This document shows positions 46,909 to 63,430 of a stretch of 64,000 nt of DNA, piece by piece (position 1 is the first letter of the stretch; each line of letters begins with the position of its first letter). The stretch comes from a virus. Location of the stretch: positions 1 through 64,000 of the IMG/VR virus record IMGVR_UViG_3300048904_000202, one strand, 5' to 3'. A program made the translations under genes and the position numbers. Under the pieces are notes generated by a model. That model did no database searches, was not told the origin of the DNA, and saw nothing but the letters and a program-made list of their open reading frames with translations.

Positions 46909-47526
46909 ATGGCGACAAAGCGCGCCAAGATTCTCGACGAGGGGCAGTTCAACAAGCTGCTCCTGTACATCGACCAGAACTCGAACATGCCAGAGCGTGA
47001 TCGACTGATCGTCATGCTCTCCTTCAAGGCTGGTCTGCGCGTCGCGGAGATCGCGAAGATCGACTTCACCGCGATGACCGATCCGGAAGGCCGGATCGCC
47101 AAGACGATCCATGTCTACTCGAACGTCGCGAAGAAGAATCGCGAGCGCGAGGTGCCCATGCACCCGATGGTGAAGAATGCCTTCGCCGCGTTCCGGAAGA
47201 AATATCCGGATGCGCCCTGCGTCGCCATCTCGTCGCAGCCTTTCCAGCACGGCCGCTCCATCTGGGACTCGCCGGCTCCGCTCATCCGCATGAGCGTCAA
47301 CGCCCTCACACTATATTATCGCCGGCTGCTCATCGCGGCCGGGTTCGACGGCTGCTCGACGCACTCGGGCAGGCGGACGTTTGCGACTGACGTGTCCCGC
47401 ATCCTGTCGCGGCACCACCAGTCGATCAAGGACCTCCAGAGACTGATGGGCCATGCCCGTCTGGACACAACGGAACGGTATCTGGAACCTTCCAATGACA
47501 CATTCAATCTCGTGGCCGCGATCTGA
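46909..47526 (+). CDS. Tyrosine recombinase, catalytic domain only
   Basis: 205 residues. Catalytic set: Arg in AGLRVAEIAK, Lys in SNVAKKNRERE, HxxR in THSGRRTF, His in MGHARLDTTERY and the nucleophile Tyr just after. The usual N-terminal core-binding SAM-like domain is missing, so it may bind DNA poorly alone or resolve specialised sites. It could integrate the phage genome or resolve dimers; no att core was recognised beside it. Confidence 0.88.
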   Translation: MATKRAKILDEGQFNKLLLYIDQNSNMPERDRLIVMLSFKAGLRVAEIAKIDFTAMTDPEGRIAKTIHVYSNVAKKNREREVPMHPMVKNAFAAFRKKYPDAPCVAISSQPFQHGRSIWDSPAPLIRMSVNALTLYYRRLLIAAGFDGCSTHSGRRTFATDVSRILSRHHQSIKDLQRLMGHARLDTTERYLEPSNDTFNLVAAI

Positions 47527-50014: not shown

Positions 50015-50092
50015 CCTCGGGTAGCTCAGTTGGTAGAGCGGTGGACCGATAATCCATGTCTTGCGGTGGTTCAAACCCACCCCTGAGGACCA
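50015..50092 (+). tRNA. tRNA-Ile (anticodon GAT), C33 variant
   Basis: Acceptor CCTCGGG/CCTGAGG, loop CCGATAA. Position 33 is C rather than the near-universal U. CCA encoded. Confidence 0.82.
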
Positions 50093-50304: not shown

Positions 50305-50335
50305 CTTGACATATGCGAGTCTAGAGTTAGTGATA
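50305..50335 (+). promoter_or_regulatory. Promoter for the lipoprotein/ATP-grasp cassette
   Basis: TTGACA at 50305 with TGATAC 19 bp or AGTGAT 17 bp downstream. GTTAG precedes the -10. The gene at 50366 begins 30 bp later after AGGGAG. Confidence 0.5.
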
Positions 50336-50365
50336 CTCATCACCCATCCAAGGGAGATTCGCAAA

Positions 50366-50893
50366 ATGGTCAAGAAGGTTATTCTCGCTGCCACCGTGGC
50401 CGGCCTCGCGCTGACTGCTTCGGCCTGTAACCGGGCTCCCGCCTATGGTTACTACAACGACGGCTACTATGCCGGCGCAAACACGCAGGTCTGCACCGAT
50501 CGCGCCGGCCGCCGCGTCCCCGATATCAACTGCCAGCAGGCCTATTACGGCGGCGGCTACAATCCCTACCTCTGGTATTATGTCGGCGGCGGTTACCCCG
50601 TTCCCTATTACGGGACCGTGGTCCACGGCGGTACTTGGTCGCGTCCGTCGAACTTCCGCAGTTATGTCCGCGCACCGGCTCAAGCCAACGTGACCCGCTC
50701 GGTCGCCGTTTCGCGCGGCGGCCTCGGCTCGACCAGCCGCAGCTTCGCGCAGACCTATTCATCGCCGTCGCGCTCGTATTCGTCGAGCAGCTATTCGTCG
50801 CCGTCCCGATCCTACTCGTCGAGCAGCTATAGCTCGTCGCGTTCGTCGTTCAGCGGGGGCGGGCGCTCGTTCGGCGGGAGCGTCAGTTCGTGA
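50366..50893 (+). CDS. Ser/Tyr-rich lipoprotein, YgiB/DUF1190-like position
   Basis: 175 residues. Signal peptide with lipobox ASAC at Cys 21. Then a Gly/Tyr-rich domain (GYYNDGYYAGANTQVC) and a C-terminal tail of Ser-Tyr repeats (SYSSSSYSSPSRSYSSSS). It is GTGA-coupled to a YgiC-like ATP-grasp gene, as YgiB is in bacterial ygiBC operons. The sequence match to DUF1190 is weak; the pairing is the main argument. Confidence 0.6.
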   Translation: MVKKVILAATVAGLALTASACNRAPAYGYYNDGYYAGANTQVCTDRAGRRVPDINCQQAYYGGGYNPYLWYYVGGGYPVPYYGTVVHGGTWSRPSNFRSYVRAPAQANVTRSVAVSRGGLGSTSRSFAQTYSSPSRSYSSSSYSSPSRSYSSSSYSSSRSSFSGGGRSFGGSVSS

Positions 50894-52041
50894 AGCGCAT
50901 CCAGACCACCCCGCGTACTGACTGGCAGGCCCGTATTCGTGATGCGGGGATGGTCTGGGCAGGCGCTGACACCGGCGGCTGGAATGAGTCCGCCTATTAC
51001 TCCTTCACCAATGAGGACATCGAGCGGATCGGCGAAGCCACCGCCGACCTCTATCGGCTGTTCATCCATTGCGGCGACGCAATGCTGGACTACCGCGACT
51101 TCTACTGGCTGCGTCAGATGGGGATGCCCGAGTGGCTGTTCCCCTATCTCAAGGCGGCGTGGGACGCGGAACCACCGGCTCTCAATTTCGGTCGCTTCGA
51201 TCTCGGGTTCGACGGTCGCAATGACCCGAAGCTGTTCGAGTTCAACTGCGACACGCCCGGCAGCCTGATCGAGGCATCGTTGGCGCAAGCGATCTGGCGC
51301 GAGGACCTGTTCCCGCGCGGTGACCAGTTCAACGGTATCAACCGGGCGCTCGTGTCGCGCTGGGCCGACCTTCGCACCTCGTTCTACGGTCGCACCTTCC
51401 ACATGACGCACGTCTTCGACGAGGACGGCGAGGACACAGCCATCACCAACTATCTGGCCGAGACCGCTCGCATGGCTGGTCTCGATCCCATGATGGTGGT
51501 GATCGACGACATCGGTCAGGACGAGGAAGGTCGCTTCGTTGACGCCGACGACATCCTCATGGACGTGGTGTACAAGCACTACCCGTGGGAGTGGATCGTC
51601 CGTGAAGAATACGGCCGCGCCATCGTCGAGCAGTCCTCGGACCCGATGCTATGGATCGAGCCGATCTGGAAGATGCTCTGGTCGAACAAGGGAATCCTCG
51701 TCGTCGCCAAGGCGCTGGAGCCCGAGAACCCTTACCTGCTTAACGCCAGCTTCGGGGATACCGGCGCGAAGGACTTCGTGAAGAAGCCCATCTTCTCGCG
51801 ACGTGGTGAGAACATCGAGATCGTAGATCAGCGCCAGACCAGCGCGCGGTCCACCGGCGGCTACGGTGCCGAGGGCTTCGTCTATCAGGAGAAGTTCGAT
51901 CTCCCCGAGATGGCTCCCGGCATCTTCCCGGTGATCGACTCGTGGATCGTCGGCGGCGTCGCAGTCGGCATGGGTGTCCGCGAAGGCGGCCTCATCACAG
52001 ACAGTTCGGCGGCTTTCGTCCCTCACATTATCGAGGGGTGA
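50890..52041 (+). CDS. Glutathionylspermidine synthase-like ATP-grasp enzyme (YgiC-like)
   Basis: 383 residues, GTG start. The pre-ATP-grasp fold and ATP site are suggested by FGRFDLGFDGRNDPKLFEFN (the family's FD-f-...-kl-E-N segment), DTPGSLIEASLAQ, SNKGILVVAKAL and KPIFSRRGENIEI. The family forms amide bonds between a peptide and an amine, but YgiC itself has no proven substrate. It lies between the lipoprotein and, further on, a potassium channel. Confidence 0.85.
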   Translation: MKRIQTTPRTDWQARIRDAGMVWAGADTGGWNESAYYSFTNEDIERIGEATADLYRLFIHCGDAMLDYRDFYWLRQMGMPEWLFPYLKAAWDAEPPALNFGRFDLGFDGRNDPKLFEFNCDTPGSLIEASLAQAIWREDLFPRGDQFNGINRALVSRWADLRTSFYGRTFHMTHVFDEDGEDTAITNYLAETARMAGLDPMMVVIDDIGQDEEGRFVDADDILMDVVYKHYPWEWIVREEYGRAIVEQSSDPMLWIEPIWKMLWSNKGILVVAKALEPENPYLLNASFGDTGAKDFVKKPIFSRRGENIEIVDQRQTSARSTGGYGAEGFVYQEKFDLPEMAPGIFPVIDSWIVGGVAVGMGVREGGLITDSSAAFVPHIIEG

Positions 52042-52042
52042 G

Positions 52043-52324
52043 ATGAGCTACGACGGCAGTGTGAAGTGGCAGCATGTCGAGGCTGCTCTGGCCCGTGATG
52101 GCTTCGCGCTGACGTTCGCCTGCACCTACGGCGAGTCTCTCCCCGCCGACCTTGAGTACACCGGCCGGGAAACCGGCTGGGAACTTCGCCGGAAGCTGAA
52201 ATCCTACTGTGCCTCACATGGGATCACCAACTTCCAGATCATTCGCAACACGAGCTACCACCGCGATCTGCACGGCAACGCCGTCTACGAGTTGTGGACT
52301 CGCCCTAACCAGATTGAGGGCTGA
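52043..52324 (+). CDS. Hypothetical protein
   Basis: 93 residues with a ribosome site GAGGGG. Alpha/beta (FALTFACTYGESLPADLEYT). Not recognised. Confidence 0.65.
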   Translation: MSYDGSVKWQHVEAALARDGFALTFACTYGESLPADLEYTGRETGWELRRKLKSYCASHGITNFQIIRNTSYHRDLHGNAVYELWTRPNQIEG

Positions 52325-52325
52325 C

Positions 52326-52547
52326 ATGGACGCGACACAATTCTGCTACTGGCTACAGGGCCTTTTCGAACTCGGCGAGCCGACGACGCTCGACGAAGTT
52401 CAGGTCGATCTCATCAAGCGACATCTCGCGATGGCTTTCGAGCATGACATCGACCGTCGCCCGCCAGTCGAAGAGCAGAAGGTCCTCAACAACATCCATG
52501 CTGGAACAACGCCCGCGTTTCAGCGGCCAAAAGGGATGAGGTGCTGA
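52326..52547 (+). CDS. Hypothetical protein
   Basis: 73 residues, helical (FCYWLQGLFELGEPTTLDEV, VDLIKRHLAMAFEHDI). This resembles a small accessory domain found in many phage genomes; no known role. Confidence 0.65.
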   Translation: MDATQFCYWLQGLFELGEPTTLDEVQVDLIKRHLAMAFEHDIDRRPPVEEQKVLNNIHAGTTPAFQRPKGMRC

Positions 52548-52548
52548 C

Positions 52549-52779
52549 ATGGATACCGATCCCGCCACAATCGCGTCGAAGCTCAACCGTGGACAGAAGT
52601 CCACCATCCGCTGCCTCGACGATACCCCGTCCGTTCTCGGCTGCGCCGAACCAACGGCTTTACGGCTTTCGCGCGCCACAACTCGCCGGCCGGCGCTGAC
52701 CTATTACACGCAAGGCGCTTCGTGGAAGATGTTCGCCCTCACGCCGATCGGACTCGAAGTTCAGGAGCATTGTTCGTGA
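52549..52779 (+). CDS. Hypothetical protein
   Basis: 76 residues; a winged-helix-like profile (LNRGQKSTIRCLDD, then FALTPIGLEVQEHC) of a small phage family with possible DNA-binding function. Confidence 0.6.
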   Translation: MDTDPATIASKLNRGQKSTIRCLDDTPSVLGCAEPTALRLSRATTRRPALTYYTQGASWKMFALTPIGLEVQEHCS

Positions 52780-53300
52780 CCAGTCCCGCCATGCACTACG
52801 CCATCACGGCCCACGCCATCACGGCCCACGCCATCACGGCCCACGCCGGCCAAACCTATGGCGACAATGCGGTTCCCTACACGGAACATCTCTTCGCGGT
52901 CCGACAGGTGCTGCGGGACTTCGGGTATTTCGGCGACTATGAAGATGCCGGCGTCCTCCATGACGTGATCGAGGACACCGCCGAGAGCCGCCGCACCGTG
53001 GCCGTCAAGTTCGGAGATCGGGTCGCCACCATGGCGTGGGTCTGCACCGGCGTTGGCCCGAACCGCGTCGTTCGCAACTGGTCCATCTACGCCAAGATGA
53101 GCATGTTTCCCGAGGCCGCGCCGGTGAAGGTCGCCGATCGGATCGCGAATGTCGAGCAGGCCACACCCGGATCGAAACACGCCAAGATGTATCTCGCCGA
53201 AGCGGGTGAGTTCCACGAACACGTCGCGCGGCTCGTGCCTCCACTGATGCAGGCCCGTCTCCTGCGGGCCTACGACGCCGCAGCACAGGTGCCGGCATGA
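52776..53300 (+). CDS. HD-domain hydrolase (SpoT/MESH1-like)
   Basis: 174 residues from a GTG overlapping the previous stop; an ATG 15 bases later is an alternative. HD motif VLHDVIEDTAE, the preceding YTEHLFAVRQVL (first His) and KVADRIANVEQ (last Asp) match RelA/SpoT hydrolase-type HD proteins. It could degrade (p)ppGpp or another nucleotide alarmone. The N-terminus has three tandem AITAH units coded by identical 15-bp repeats (52799-52846). Confidence 0.75.
   Translation: MTSPAMHYAITAHAITAHAITAHAGQTYGDNAVPYTEHLFAVRQVLRDFGYFGDYEDAGVLHDVIEDTAESRRTVAVKFGDRVATMAWVCTGVGPNRVVRNWSIYAKMSMFPEAAPVKVADRIANVEQATPGSKHAKMYLAEAGEFHEHVARLVPPLMQARLLRAYDAAAQVPA
52799..52846 (+). repeat. Three tandem 15-bp repeats
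   Basis: Three consecutive copies of GCCATCACGGCCCAC encode AITAH three times near the start of the HD-domain gene. Copy number could vary without breaking the frame. Confidence 0.85.
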
Positions 53301-53416
53301 CCCTCGGTGGCTTCCTCCTCATGCTGGTGATCGTGTTCGTCATCGTCCTGTTCGTCGCGATCGTATGCGGCGTGGACCTGTCGGACATCTTCTTCTTCCT
53401 GCCGGACGGTAACTGA
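53297..53416 (+). CDS. Tiny membrane protein
   Basis: 39 residues, overlapping both neighbours; one long helix (FLLMLVIVFVIVLFVAIV) with an acidic C-terminus. It lies directly upstream of the channel-associated membrane gene. Confidence 0.6.
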   Translation: MTLGGFLLMLVIVFVIVLFVAIVCGVDLSDIFFFLPDGN

Positions 53417-53616
53417 TGACCGCGCGCCAGTTCGTCTTCCTACTCCAGTGGGGTTGGTTGATGTTGCTCGCTGGTCTCTTCTCGCTTCTCTGCATGCCGA
53501 TGTTCGCCATGCACGCGTGGATGGAGCGCAAGCCTCATCCGTGGCGCTGGGCGTGGGGTGTGGTGTCGAGCGGCGGCTTTCGGGATTTCGCGAAGGATTG
53601 GAGAAAGTACGGATGA
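53416..53616 (+). CDS. Small membrane protein before the channel gene
   Basis: 66 residues; one N-terminal membrane helix (FVFLLQWGWLMLLAGLFSLL) and a Trp/Arg-rich cytosolic tail (HPWRWAWGVVSSGGFRDFAK). ATGA-coupled to the channel gene, so possibly an accessory subunit (inference). Confidence 0.6.
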   Translation: MTARQFVFLLQWGWLMLLAGLFSLLCMPMFAMHAWMERKPHPWRWAWGVVSSGGFRDFAKDWRKYG

Positions 53617-54125
53617 ACAAGCTCCAAGCCGCGACCGACACCGTCAAGGAACTGCTCTGCTGGTACGTCATCCTGCTGTTCGCAGCAGCCGGCGTCTACA
53701 TGTTCGCGGAACACACATCACTCGACGACGCGCTCTATTGGGCAGCGACCACCGCGACCTCGACCGGGTATGGTGACCTGTCGCCGAAGACGATCGCCGG
53801 CCGGATTGATGCCGTGCTGCTCATGCACATCTCGATCTTCGTCATCGCGCCCATGATGATCGTCCGCCTCATCGACAGGATGCGCGTCGATCCGAACGTC
53901 TTCACGGACGAGGAGCAGAAGGAGGTGCTGGAACACCTGCGAGCGATCCGGGACAAGGTCGGTGAGCCGGATTACGGCAAGTCGCCCCGTCTAGCTCAGA
54001 CGCTCAGGCAGCTTCGCAACACCTATTACCACATGCTGCGAGCGCCTGATTTCTGCACGAAGGCTGCTGCGGCCTCCATCAAGATGGCGATCGACCAGCT
54101 TGAGAAAGTGGCGAAGGAACAGTGA
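53613..54125 (+). CDS. Potassium channel (two-TM, TxGYGD filter)
   Basis: 170 residues with ATGA overlap. Order: TM1 (LLCWYVILLFAAAGVYMF), pore helix (DDALYWAATTATS), selectivity filter STGYGDLSP, TM2 (AVLLMHISIFVIAPMMIV), then a 90-residue helical cytosolic tail without an obvious RCK/TrkA-N domain. The filter and two-TM layout are those of KcsA/MthK-type channels. It should conduct K+ as a tetramer and could depolarise the host membrane or regulate ion balance during infection. Confidence 0.88.
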   Translation: MNKLQAATDTVKELLCWYVILLFAAAGVYMFAEHTSLDDALYWAATTATSTGYGDLSPKTIAGRIDAVLLMHISIFVIAPMMIVRLIDRMRVDPNVFTDEEQKEVLEHLRAIRDKVGEPDYGKSPRLAQTLRQLRNTYYHMLRAPDFCTKAAAASIKMAIDQLEKVAKEQ

Positions 54126-54289
54126 TGGACGACATCGACGTGGATCAGTTCGTGGCCGAAGAGATCGAGAGCCTCCGCCGCTTCGCTGCGATGTGGAAAT
54201 CCGAATCGGCGAACGACCCGGAAATCTGGCCGGCGAACATGCGGCGCGGCGAATGGGATGAGCAGTTCCGCTCGTACGAGGGCGCGTGA
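54125..54289 (+). CDS. Small acidic hypothetical protein
   Basis: 54 residues, coupled to the channel stop and the next ATG. Helical and acidic (DQFVAEEIESLRRFAAMW). Function unknown. Confidence 0.6.
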   Translation: MDDIDVDQFVAEEIESLRRFAAMWKSESANDPEIWPANMRRGEWDEQFRSYEGA

Positions 54290-54597
54290 TGACGGACCCT
54301 ATCGGCAACTGCGAATGCGGCGCACCGCTGGCTGAGACCGGTCCGCCGATCTGGGAAACCTACTGCACGGACGAGAAGTGCAAGGTCGCTTGGAACAAAC
54401 TGGTCAAGGCTATCCGCGAGGCGCCGTTGCCGCCGCTTACCGGACGATATGCCGCCGAGATCAAGCAGATCGCTGCCGAGCTTCGCCATACCTACGACCA
54501 TCTGGTGAATGGCACCACCAGTGATCCCGCCGAATTGGCGAGAGGCCTGCTCGGCCCACAGATCGTGCGGCTTGAGAAGCTGACAGGAGGGAAGTGA
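54289..54597 (+). CDS. Hypothetical protein with N-terminal Cys cluster
   Basis: 102 residues. CECGAPL ... CTDEKCKVAW suggests a zinc site, followed by a helical region (YAAEIKQIAAELRHTYDHLV). Not recognised. Confidence 0.65.
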   Translation: MTDPIGNCECGAPLAETGPPIWETYCTDEKCKVAWNKLVKAIREAPLPPLTGRYAAEIKQIAAELRHTYDHLVNGTTSDPAELARGLLGPQIVRLEKLTGGK

Positions 54598-55229
54598 TGA
54601 AGAACAACGTCTATTACGAAGCCGTCGCAGGTGAGGTTCTCGCCTTCTGCTTCGACTACCGCGAGCGCCTGATCGCAAAGCGCGACGTGTTTCAGGAGTA
54701 CGCCAAGTCCAAGGGCGCGAAGGGCTGGGTTGGTTCATGGGGTGATTTCTTCGGCCTGCTCTATGAGCGCGATGCCGATCGCCCTAAAGGCCTTGTTGCC
54801 GCCAAGCGCAAGACCAACGACGGCTACACTGTCTGGCGTCCCCATGGGAAGTCGCCCGAGGGTAAGGAACTTCGCCGCGAGTTCGACGACCTTGGTCGAG
54901 AGCCACGTGGTCACGAGTTCTGCAAGCGGTTCAACATCCCGGAGTCCTTGAGCTACCGGAAGTCCGAGGAGTGCTACGGCACCATGGCGCTCAACGCCAT
55001 CTTCCCCGACTCGGCCTTCATCGGCTGGACCGGAGAAGGTGACGATCTTCGCTTCTGGGTCGTGCTACCGGACGTGGATGGTGCCATCGCCGACAAGACT
55101 GCCGAGGGTTACACCTGCGATCCTGCTTCGTGGACTCTGCCGGCCGGGCTAATTCTCTCCAGCCGAGCCCGCTACGATCTCGCCGTGGCGCAGGCCAAGG
55201 TGCGGGAAGAGGAGCTTGAGGCGGCGTGA
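54597..55229 (+). CDS. Hypothetical protein
   Basis: 210 residues with an ATG in a TGATG overlap. Segments WGDFFGLLYERDADRPKGLV and FIGWTGEGDDLRFWVVLPDV. No known domain recognised. Confidence 0.65.
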   Translation: MKNNVYYEAVAGEVLAFCFDYRERLIAKRDVFQEYAKSKGAKGWVGSWGDFFGLLYERDADRPKGLVAAKRKTNDGYTVWRPHGKSPEGKELRREFDDLGREPRGHEFCKRFNIPESLSYRKSEECYGTMALNAIFPDSAFIGWTGEGDDLRFWVVLPDVDGAIADKTAEGYTCDPASWTLPAGLILSSRARYDLAVAQAKVREEELEAA

Positions 55230-55444
55230 TCACCGACGATCAACTGGTGGCGCTGCTCATCGACGCCCACACCACCCGGCACGATCCCGAGTTCGGATCG
55301 AGCTATCACCAGACCGACCGCTTCGATGTCGAGATCGAGAACGGGATCATCAAGGTCGGCACCGGCGGAGGTGACTTCTACGCGGTGACGCTCGATCTCG
55401 AACAGTTCCGTGCCGGCGTCGAAGCCCTGATCCGGAGCGATTGA
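55226..55444 (+). CDS. Hypothetical protein
   Basis: 72 residues; GTG start in a GTGA overlap. Acidic, beta-rich (DRFDVEIENGIIKVGTGGGD). Not recognised. Confidence 0.6.
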   Translation: MITDDQLVALLIDAHTTRHDPEFGSSYHQTDRFDVEIENGIIKVGTGGGDFYAVTLDLEQFRAGVEALIRSD

Positions 55445-55638
55445 TGCTCACCTACCTAGACCGGGCTTTCTGCACCGCCAAGTGTCTCACCCTCGATTGT
55501 CCACGCAACGTGACGCCAGAGGTCGAAGCGGCTGCGGAGAAATGGTGGGGAGGCCCGGATTTCCCGATGAGGCTCATGCCGCTCAATGAGCAGTGTGATG
55601 GCTACCAGCCAGCGCCGGAGGGCATCTGCAATGCCTAA
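55444..55638 (+). CDS. Cys-containing small protein
   Basis: 64 residues; Cys at CTAKCLTLDC and at EQCDGY and GIC suggest a metal site. TGATG-coupled. Not recognised. Confidence 0.6.
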   Translation: MLTYLDRAFCTAKCLTLDCPRNVTPEVEAAAEKWWGGPDFPMRLMPLNEQCDGYQPAPEGICNA

Positions 55639-56732: not shown

Positions 56733-56809
56733 GGATCGGTAGCTCAATAGCGTAGAGCGGTGGGTTCTTACCCCGCAGGTTGTGGGTTCGACCCCCACCC
56801 GATCCTCCA
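56733..56809 (+). tRNA. tRNA-Lys (anticodon CTT)
   Basis: Acceptor GGATCGG/CCGATCC, discriminator T (unusual for Lys), CCA encoded. Loop TTCTTAC. Confidence 0.9.
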
Positions 56810-62844: not shown

Positions 62845-62944
62845 GTTCACTTGCGATGCGGCAGGCCTTGCCGACCGTGGAGGTCGGTTGGTCAACACTA
62901 GGCCGGCGAGGCAGGGAGTAGTGTCCCGGCAACGAGCTTTGGTC

Positions 62945-63034
62945 TGCCCCATCGCCAGTGATGGCGAGATGATCGTAATTCGGACGATCGAAGTTTTGGC
63001 TCGGACGCGGGGGCGGTTCCCGCCGGTTCCACCA
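62945..63034 (+). ncRNA. ssrA: Permuted tmRNA, acceptor piece
   Basis: The 3' part of tmRNA lies upstream of the 5' part. It ends CGGTTCC-A-CCA at 63034; CGGTTCC pairs with all seven bases GGGGCCG that begin the coding piece, including the G3-U70 alanine identity pair. The T-arm stem is GCGGG/CCCGC but the loop is GGCGGTT instead of TTCRANY. TCGGACGCGGG before it matches the usual 3' region of tmRNAs. The 5' end of the piece is approximate. Confidence 0.75.
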
Positions 63035-63123
63035 CGAGCCCCGATATTACTGCCACTAGGGGCGACCTACCGCTCCGAAGAGGCGCGGAGTTATCGGCCG
63101 CGCTCTGTGTTCGGGGTTGATGA
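63035..63123 (+). ncRNA. tmRNA intervening segment
   Basis: The 89 bases between the CCA of the acceptor piece and the GGGG start of the coding piece correspond to the excised segment of a two-piece tmRNA. No other feature was seen in it. Confidence 0.6.
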
Positions 63124-63300
63124 TGGGGCCGAAGTAGGATTCGACGGGCAAGGCGGAGGTTAGGACGCGATCTAGCATGACCGACTACGCTTCGGCGAGA
63201 CAGGTCACCGTTTGTAAATGCGAACGACAACACTCCGGTGGTTGTCGCCCGCGACGAGGTTCGCCTCGCCGCGTAAGCGATAACTCTCAGCCTCCGGACT
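63124..63300 (+). ncRNA. ssrA: Permuted tmRNA, coding piece with proteolysis tag
   Basis: Begins GGGGCCGAAGTA followed by the tmRNA signature GGATTCGACGGG (63136-63147). The resume codon GCG at 63220 opens the tag ANDNTPVVVARDEVRLAA, ending in TAA at 63274-63276. The ANDN start and small hydrophobic LAA end are classic ssrA features. A hairpin (CTCAG/CTGAG) follows. The 3' end of the piece is approximate. It would rescue stalled ribosomes with a phage-specific, unusually long 18-residue tag. Confidence 0.85.
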
Positions 63301-63351
63301 GAGAAAAGGGGCTCGGGGCCAGCCTTGCAACAGAATGGCCCCACGAGATTT

Positions 63352-63430
63352 GAGGTAGCTGGAGGTCGCCGGTTCGAGTCCGGTCATCCCCTGATCCGGG
63401 ATGTAGCTCAGATGGTAGAGCGCCAGCGTA
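63352..63430 (+). tRNA. Candidate circularly permuted tRNA A (3' half before 5' half)
   Basis: 3' half: anticodon strand GCTGG (63358-63362), variable AGGTC, T arm GCCGG-TTCGAGT-CCGGT, acceptor CATCCCC ending 63391. 5' half: GGGATG (63398-63403), TA, D arm GCTC-AGATGGTA-GAGC, anticodon strand CCAGC (63423-63427). GGGATG pairs with CATCCC and CCAGC with GCTGG only in this reversed order. Six bases (TGATCC) separate the halves. The anticodon cannot be read with confidence and CCA is not encoded. Confidence 0.5.

Follow-up and report, generated by a model that had tools for sequence, protein, structure and literature searches.

A lipoprotein-ligase gene pair and a potassium channel gene in a tRNA-bordered slot of a phage genome: a probable phage-carried YgiBC/YjfMC-type module

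The stretch of DNA analyzed here (the window, 64,000 nucleotides) comprises bases 1-64000 of the 164,476-base IMG/VR virus record IMGVR_UViG_3300048904_000202, a phage whose hosts are probably sphingomonad bacteria. A first-pass annotation of this DNA had singled out a region between transfer RNA (tRNA) genes as a potassium channel gene linked to a cassette resembling E. coli ygiB-ygiC. The features at the center of the analysis are the following:

50015..50092, plus strand, tRNA-Ile(gat), left border of the slot (ARAGORN)
50305..50345, plus strand, upstream element CTTGACATATGCG..CTAGAGT, possible promoter
50366..50893, plus strand, DUF1190-like lipoprotein, 175 amino acids, with a lipobox, an SRGGLG motif, a Ser-rich repeat extension and the C-terminus ...GRSFGGSVSS
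50890..52041, plus strand, YgiC/YjfC-type ATP-grasp protein (PF03738, 1.3e-106), 383 amino acids, predicted peptide-polyamine ligase
53613..54125, plus strand, K+ channel with two transmembrane helices (2-TM), 170 amino acids, filter TSTGYGD (PF07885, 2.1e-12; phrog_14690)
56733..56809, plus strand, tRNA-Lys(ctt), right border of the slot (ARAGORN)

The same two tRNA genes border the slot in Sphingobium phage Lacusarx and in a related phage, L027. In the window the slot is occupied by a run of plus-strand genes spaced -4 to +1 nucleotides (nt) from the end of one to the start of the next, in agreement with the proposal that all the genes lie on one strand between tRNAs. The lipoprotein stop codon overlaps the GTG start of the ligase gene (GTGA, -4 nt), the coupling that had been noticed at first. 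The proposed gene order was correct only in part. All the named genes are present, but four open reading frames (ORFs; 52043-53300) follow the ATP-grasp gene before the two tiny membrane ORFs that had been placed next to it. The separation between the ATP-grasp and channel genes amounts to 1.57 kb and six ORFs. The tight coupling continues past the channel through at least five further genes, and it is therefore a property of the whole operon-like stretch and not of the trio. This spacing argues for one transcript, from which the genes of the stretch would be co-expressed. The upstream element is conserved 5′ of the lipoprotein gene in L027. It has one exact copy in the 164 kb genome, and a search for a sigma-70 promoter with standard spacing at the element gave no match. 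These two results ruled it out as a phage-wide promoter and, because of the second, any promoter function is a guess.

The ligase matched PF03738 over its full length (positions 1-371 of 371) with 357 bits against a cut-off of 29.3. Its closest solved relatives were E. coli YgiC and YjfC, the best being YgiC (7uk8, 2.6e-64). It consists of a synthetase domain without the N-terminal amidase, is co-linear with YgiC 9-392, and aligned to GspS over the GspS synthetase part only. Residues R316, D318, E330, N332, K498, K533 and R598 of E. coli GspS, which we take to be catalytic, correspond in the family-profile alignment to R102, D104, E117, N119, K267, K299 and R364 of the window ligase, and all seven are kept. 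The E. coli YgiC and YjfC ligases are named peptide--spermidine ligases in RefSeq, which agrees with the conclusion that PMC12568646 attributes to Pederick 2023. Phages were already noted in 2006 to carry GspS-like genes (PMC1524935). Judged by its sequence, the window protein probably acts as a polyamine-peptide ligase.

A quick tree placed the ligase on a long branch within a 13-row clade (Shimodaira-Hasegawa-like approximate likelihood ratio test, 99), the cellular members of which are all sphingomonads or Caulobacterales. The differences between the window ligase and its relatives were in excess at third codon positions, which shows selection on the protein. Comparison with 157 relatives showed that 54 near-invariant family positions are kept and nine are changed. 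The changes and the long branch could indicate that the ligase is decaying or inactive, and damaged copies exist elsewhere: the L027 gene is frameshifted near codon 107, possibly through an assembly error, and the Aeromonas phage LAh_8 gene (L006:4001-5209) contains an internal stop codon, its annotation giving two ORFs. Decay or loss of activity is nonetheless very improbable in view of the intact catalytic residues, the full-length open frame and the excess of third-position changes. We read the protein as a functional but divergent enzyme that would have been acquired from an alphaproteobacterial source.

The lipoprotein gene lies directly 5′ of the ligase gene. Its product has the lipobox LTASAC with Cys21, matched phrog_24063 at 2e-6, and shares 38-44% identity with lipoproteins of related phages and sphingomonads and 35% with LAV_00088 of Lacusarx. 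The lipobox, the motif and the position 5′ of the ligase gene agree with the DUF1190 identity suggested earlier, but the Pfam comparison does not. No match of the window lipoprotein to PF06693 (DUF1190; Pfam cut-off, 22 bits) was obtained at E ≤ 1, and the hhalign alignment to true DUF1190 profiles covered the signal peptide only (24 N-terminal columns). For these reasons, the protein is termed DUF1190-like and not DUF1190. An iterated hidden Markov model found it at 5e-5, under strong composition bias, and its Lacusarx homologue matched PF06693 at 0.004. The structure model (mean predicted local distance difference test, 56.5) was too poor for a fold search. Ser-rich near repeats at 50757-50860 (SSPSRSYSSSSY twice) make the tail longer than in relatives, and the Lacusarx lipoprotein has a similar tail extension.

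The C-termini of the linked lipoproteins were compared in 65 clusters (60% identity over the tail), and each tail was shuffled behind the motif in 5000 trials as a control. An RGG[FLIW]G motif was found within the last 60 residues in 56 of the 65 clusters, mostly about 13-18 residues from the end. The last residue was G, S, A or E in every cluster (shuffles: mean 50, maximum 61) and Gly occupied position -2 in 50 of them (shuffles: mean 20, maximum 34), figures that must be read with the caveats that the sequences are kin and that the profile search may favor similar tails. Such a last residue was found in 26% of the other lipobox ORFs of the same loci. E. coli YgiB and YjfM both end in GG. 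The window lipoprotein has the usual GRSFGG and then continues with SVSS.

Twelve phages encode the lipoprotein and have no PF03738 protein anywhere in their genomes. Eleven of them are enterobacterial in the broad sense, mostly jumbo phages, and one is a Xanthomonas phage. The GG end is present in all twelve and RGGFG is kept in eleven. Examples, each a DUF1190 lipoprotein ending in GG, are:

L316:1135-1758
L315:2447-3064
L318:1135-1758

Among enterobacteria, at least E. coli has both ligases in its own genome. Lacusarx, which also lacks the ligase gene, encodes a lipoprotein whose tail ends in RRR and has lost the motif, and the ligase was found in just 16 of 149 genomes of its host family. 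The C-terminal rule is new here; no description of it or of the phage module was found in the literature searched.

Recurrence of the gene set was assessed at viral ligase loci, of which 80 were taken in and 62 were distinct at 90% identity. A DUF1190-like lipoprotein gene was located within 3 kb of the ligase gene in 55 of the 62 distinct loci; at 26 of these it is upstream by 30 nt or less. A channel gene was found at 8 of the 62. In most actinobacterial ligase loci the loosest lipoprotein criterion gave no match, and these serve as a rough negative control. Complete trios are present in LAh_8, L003, L005, L023, L027 and L084. Their order varies, being LemA-lipoprotein-ligase-channel in L003 (an IMG/VR contig), channel-lipoprotein-ligase-DUF350-like in L005, and DUF350-lipoprotein-ligase-channel in L023. 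In the 149 Sphingomonadaceae genomes the lipoprotein was detected in four, each time beside the ligase, and the channel adjoins the ligase in one of the 16 ligase genomes, that of Sphingomonas sp. JC676. The JC676 trio looks chromosomal since a glucoamylase gene neighbors it. Recurrence in unrelated phages and in a Sphingomonas chromosome ruled out chance co-location, and the linkage of the module genes is therefore taken as real. The proposal of a linked cassette holds in that ligase, lipoprotein and channel recur together in unrelated genomes, but in the window phage itself the channel is not adjacent.

Other genes were observed at some of these loci. In L003 (L003:6484-9481) a LemA-family gene and a membrane protein gene precede the lipoprotein-ligase-channel row, and in phage 44RR (L010) a Band_7 gene is close to the DUF1190 gene and the ligase gene; both echo bacterial membrane-stress operons. 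In Achromobacter phage Motura (L009:2303-5128) a saccharopine-dehydrogenase-fold gene annotated as homospermidine synthase is followed by a DUF1190-like protein gene and then the ligase gene, a row that links polyamine synthesis to the pair.

The channel matched Ion_trans_2 (PF07885) with 47 bits against a cut-off of 22.5, and its filter is intact, as had been stated in the first-pass annotation. It is predicted to conduct K+. Residues 1-115, in which an FT-EEQ motif follows the second helix, are shared with other phage channels, while residues 116-170 form a private predicted two-helix tail, an extra, unconserved module that relatives do not have. The structure model shows two membrane helices and a pore helix (helices 11-33, 37-49 and 61-90) and resembles KcsA and NaK. 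The best PDB match had an E value of 1.1e-3 and none reached 0.001; one uncultured phage channel did reach that value. A domain shared by the tail (53978-54040) and the ORF at 54286-54597 was considered and rejected, as the LR.TY.H likeness is weak (E 1.4) and 36 of 5000 shuffles were as good.

The channel is the weakest link of the set in the window. It is separated from the lipoprotein and ligase genes by the intervening ORFs, it is found at only 8 of the 62 viral ligase loci, a ligase is absent from the surroundings of 74 of 80 viral channel loci, and the channel that occupies the same slot in L027 belongs to another subfamily and is just 32-34% identical. From the non-adjacency, the mostly solitary phage channels and this low identity, the association of the channel with the other two parts may be a loose one. 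The same observations, together with the single adjacent channel among the 16 sphingomonad ligase genomes, fit an alternative in which the lipoprotein and ligase function as a pair, and a phage accessory gene unrelated to them, that of the channel, happens to be in the operon. This alternative does not account for the direct adjacency in LAh_8, L003, L005, L084 and JC676, or for the ligand-sensing K+ channel of published bacterial operons (PMC11237479). In addition, the nearest channel found was that of JC676 (locus L183), and the 50% identity between the two suggests joint arrival of all three genes. We consider the unrelated-channel explanation a serious contender that falls somewhat short of an even chance, and we are evenly divided on whether the channel is functionally coupled to the ligase and lipoprotein.

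Bacterial operons with an ATP-grasp gene, a K+ channel gene, DUF350, DUF1190 and DUF2491, with or without PspA, have been published (Ravi 2024, PMC11237479), so that the first-pass statement that amidoligase, DUF1190 lipoprotein and ion channel genes share bacterial neighborhoods was accurate. The E. coli ygiB-ygiC and yjfIJKLMC loci resemble the window in having a lipoprotein gene directly 5′ of a PF03738 ligase gene of the same length and without the amidase domain, and YgiB and YjfM resemble the phage lipoproteins in their RGG[FY]G motif and in ending with small residues. In contrast to the E. coli proteins, the phage lipoprotein is below the DUF1190 cut-off and the phage ligase deviates at nine conserved sites. 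In addition, the phage slot has a K+ channel gene and no PspA, DUF2491 or DUF350 gene: none of the three had a Pfam match among the slot ORFs, and no DUF350-profile match was obtained in 46-62 kb. The PspA/CesT-Tir operon variant (Ravi 2024, PMC11237479) also brings together ligase, channel and DUF1190-type lipoprotein, but its channel has an intracellular ligand sensor, whereas the window channel is a 2-TM protein with a short private tail, and the other partners are missing. In the Aeromonas phage LAh_8 group (LAh8_32-34) the K+ channel, DUF1190 lipoprotein and ligase genes are likewise in one phage block; the order there is channel-lipoprotein-ligase, the phage genus is unrelated, and the ligase is annotated as two ORFs. 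The JC676 trio is similar in sequence (ligase 46%, lipoprotein 43% and channel 50% identical) and has the lipoprotein, ligase and channel genes in a row, but it is cellular and no genes lie between ligase and channel. Lacusarx LAV_00088 is a related lipoprotein in the same tRNA-Ile/tRNA-Lys slot, although it stands alone and its tail motif is lost. Very probably, the window set is a member of the YgiBC/YjfMC-type module. The bacterial gene combination is already known, and the window set is a reduced, phage-carried form of it.

In this phage group the gap between tRNA-Ile and tRNA-Lys holds cargo that varies, and three contents were seen. Lacusarx has the lipoprotein gene alone (L015:13301-13864), L027 has lipoprotein-ligase-channel-NUDIX (L027:5494-8520) with the same tRNA order as the window, and the window has a 6.6 kb gene run. 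The region that holds the slot was named "host takeover" in the Lacusarx paper (PMC5648845), and this location suggests early, host-directed action.

We propose that the locus carries a reduced YgiBC/YjfMC-type module, alphaproteobacterial in source, placed in the early host-takeover region. The ATP-grasp enzyme would couple a polyamine to the carboxylate of a peptide at the cost of ATP. The gene just 5′ of the ligase gene would supply its partner, the lipoprotein, whose flexible C-terminal tail would be the natural acceptor or, failing that, the site where the enzyme docks. This tail would be modified in the cytosol before crossing the membrane, and the envelope of the infected cell would then display a lipoprotein whose end is polycationic. 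The channel would be an optional third component, translated from the same stretch and governing K+ flux through the inner membrane. Polyamine capping of the lipoprotein is proposed because this class of enzymes joins a peptide carboxylate to a polyamine amine and because the C-terminus of the partner is small, Gly-flanked and conserved. The enzymatic activity, the acceptor and the benefit to the phage are all presumptive at this stage. We would give the proposal as a whole the same chance of being right as of being wrong; that the tail is the acceptor or docking site is, taken by itself, a tentative assignment that may well be incorrect.

Apart from the position of the channel, several observations weigh against this proposal. 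The missing DUF1190 match leaves the family of the lipoprotein less secure, and its tail extends four residues past the usual ...SFGG end. The nine changed ligase positions, including E305R, are 94-100% invariant in the 157 relatives, and activity or substrate may therefore differ. The activity of such ligases has reportedly been on small peptides. A constrained C-terminus could also serve folding, sorting or binding and not ligation. Finally, no match to the spermidine synthase (PF01564) or ornithine/arginine decarboxylase (PF02784) families was found in the phage.

A different role for the same enzymatic activity would be the production of small glutathionylspermidine-like polyamine-peptide conjugates, by which the level of free polyamine is adjusted, with the channel adjusting K+. 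Between them, enzyme and channel would regulate the counter-ions that phage DNA requires for replication and packaging, and the lipoprotein would be a sensor or binding protein. The reported peptide-spermidine ligase activity of YgiC and YjfC, the homospermidine synthase gene beside the pair in Motura and the regulation of K+ channels by polyamines (PMC11107197) are compatible with this role. It leaves unexplained the constrained lipoprotein C-terminus and the GG end kept in ligase-less phages, and the absence of polyamine synthesis family matches in the phage also counts against it. We regard it as unlikely.

Remodeling of the envelope to exclude competing phages or to protect the infected cell, the role offered in the first-pass annotation, would be in keeping with a lipoprotein that faces the envelope, with bacterial operons that tie the module genes to PspA envelope stress (PMC11237479), and with a tRNA slot within the Lacusarx host-takeover region (PMC5648845). 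Against it, eight proteins had no match to the PADLOC models for anti-phage defense or exclusion, and presence is patchy even among close phages, with Lacusarx having the lipoprotein alone. We think it improbable that the set has this role, and equally so that envelope protection or exclusion is the benefit the phage obtains under the proposal of a polyamine-capped tail.

A broader and rather doubtful extension of that proposal is that DUF1190-type lipoproteins are dedicated ligase substrates whose G-[G/S/A/E] end is polyamine-capped, and that phages bring either both genes or a GG-ended lipoprotein for the YgiC/YjfC of the host. If this were true, phages would bring ligase and lipoprotein where hosts are often without the ligase, such as sphingomonads, while enterobacterial phages would bring only the GG-ended lipoprotein for the ligases of the host. 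Protein C-terminal polyamination would then take part in the phage-host interplay, of which no description was found in the literature searched. With the phage comparison, the loose idea of an envelope role for YgiBC/YjfMC and DUF1190 becomes a concrete question, whether the lipoprotein C-terminus is the ligase substrate. The repeated carriage of module genes by phages, in part or whole and here at a host-takeover site, implies that the pathway matters during infection.

The remaining genes of the stretch are the following:

52043..52324, plus strand, small ORF, 93 amino acids, no relative found
52326..52547, plus strand, small ORF, 73 amino acids, phrog_28500
52549..52779, plus strand, small ORF, 76 amino acids, no relative found
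52776..53300, plus strand, HD-domain hydrolase, 174 amino acids (PF13328, 1e-7; phrog_990, 8.5e-26; TIGR00691, 2e-7)
53297..53416, plus strand, hydrophobic single-span ORF, 39 amino acids (hydropathy; -4 nt overlap)
53416..53616, plus strand, hydrophobic ORF, 66 amino acids, no convincing relative
54122..55638, plus strand, five further small genes overlapping end to start, in the same stretch as the channel

The tiny membrane ORFs were rejected as conserved module parts; they have no convincing relatives, and the ligase and channel genes of L027 and L023 have none of them in between. L023 has a small putative lipoprotein at that position. The HD-domain hydrolase is nearest to the SpoT/RelA hydrolase domain, so its substrate may be an alarmone or a nucleotide. 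In the part of the gene that encodes its N-terminus, a 15-nt unit (GCCATCACGGCCCAC) occurs three times in frame and could be a site of slippage. A tyrosine recombinase gene (PF00589, 3e-18) at 46909-47526 precedes the tRNA cluster, an arrangement shared with Lacusarx, and the enzyme could serve cargo exchange within the tRNA region. Downstream of the 26-tRNA array there is a phage transfer-messenger RNA gene (62942-63367) with the tag ANDNTPVVVARDEVRLAA.

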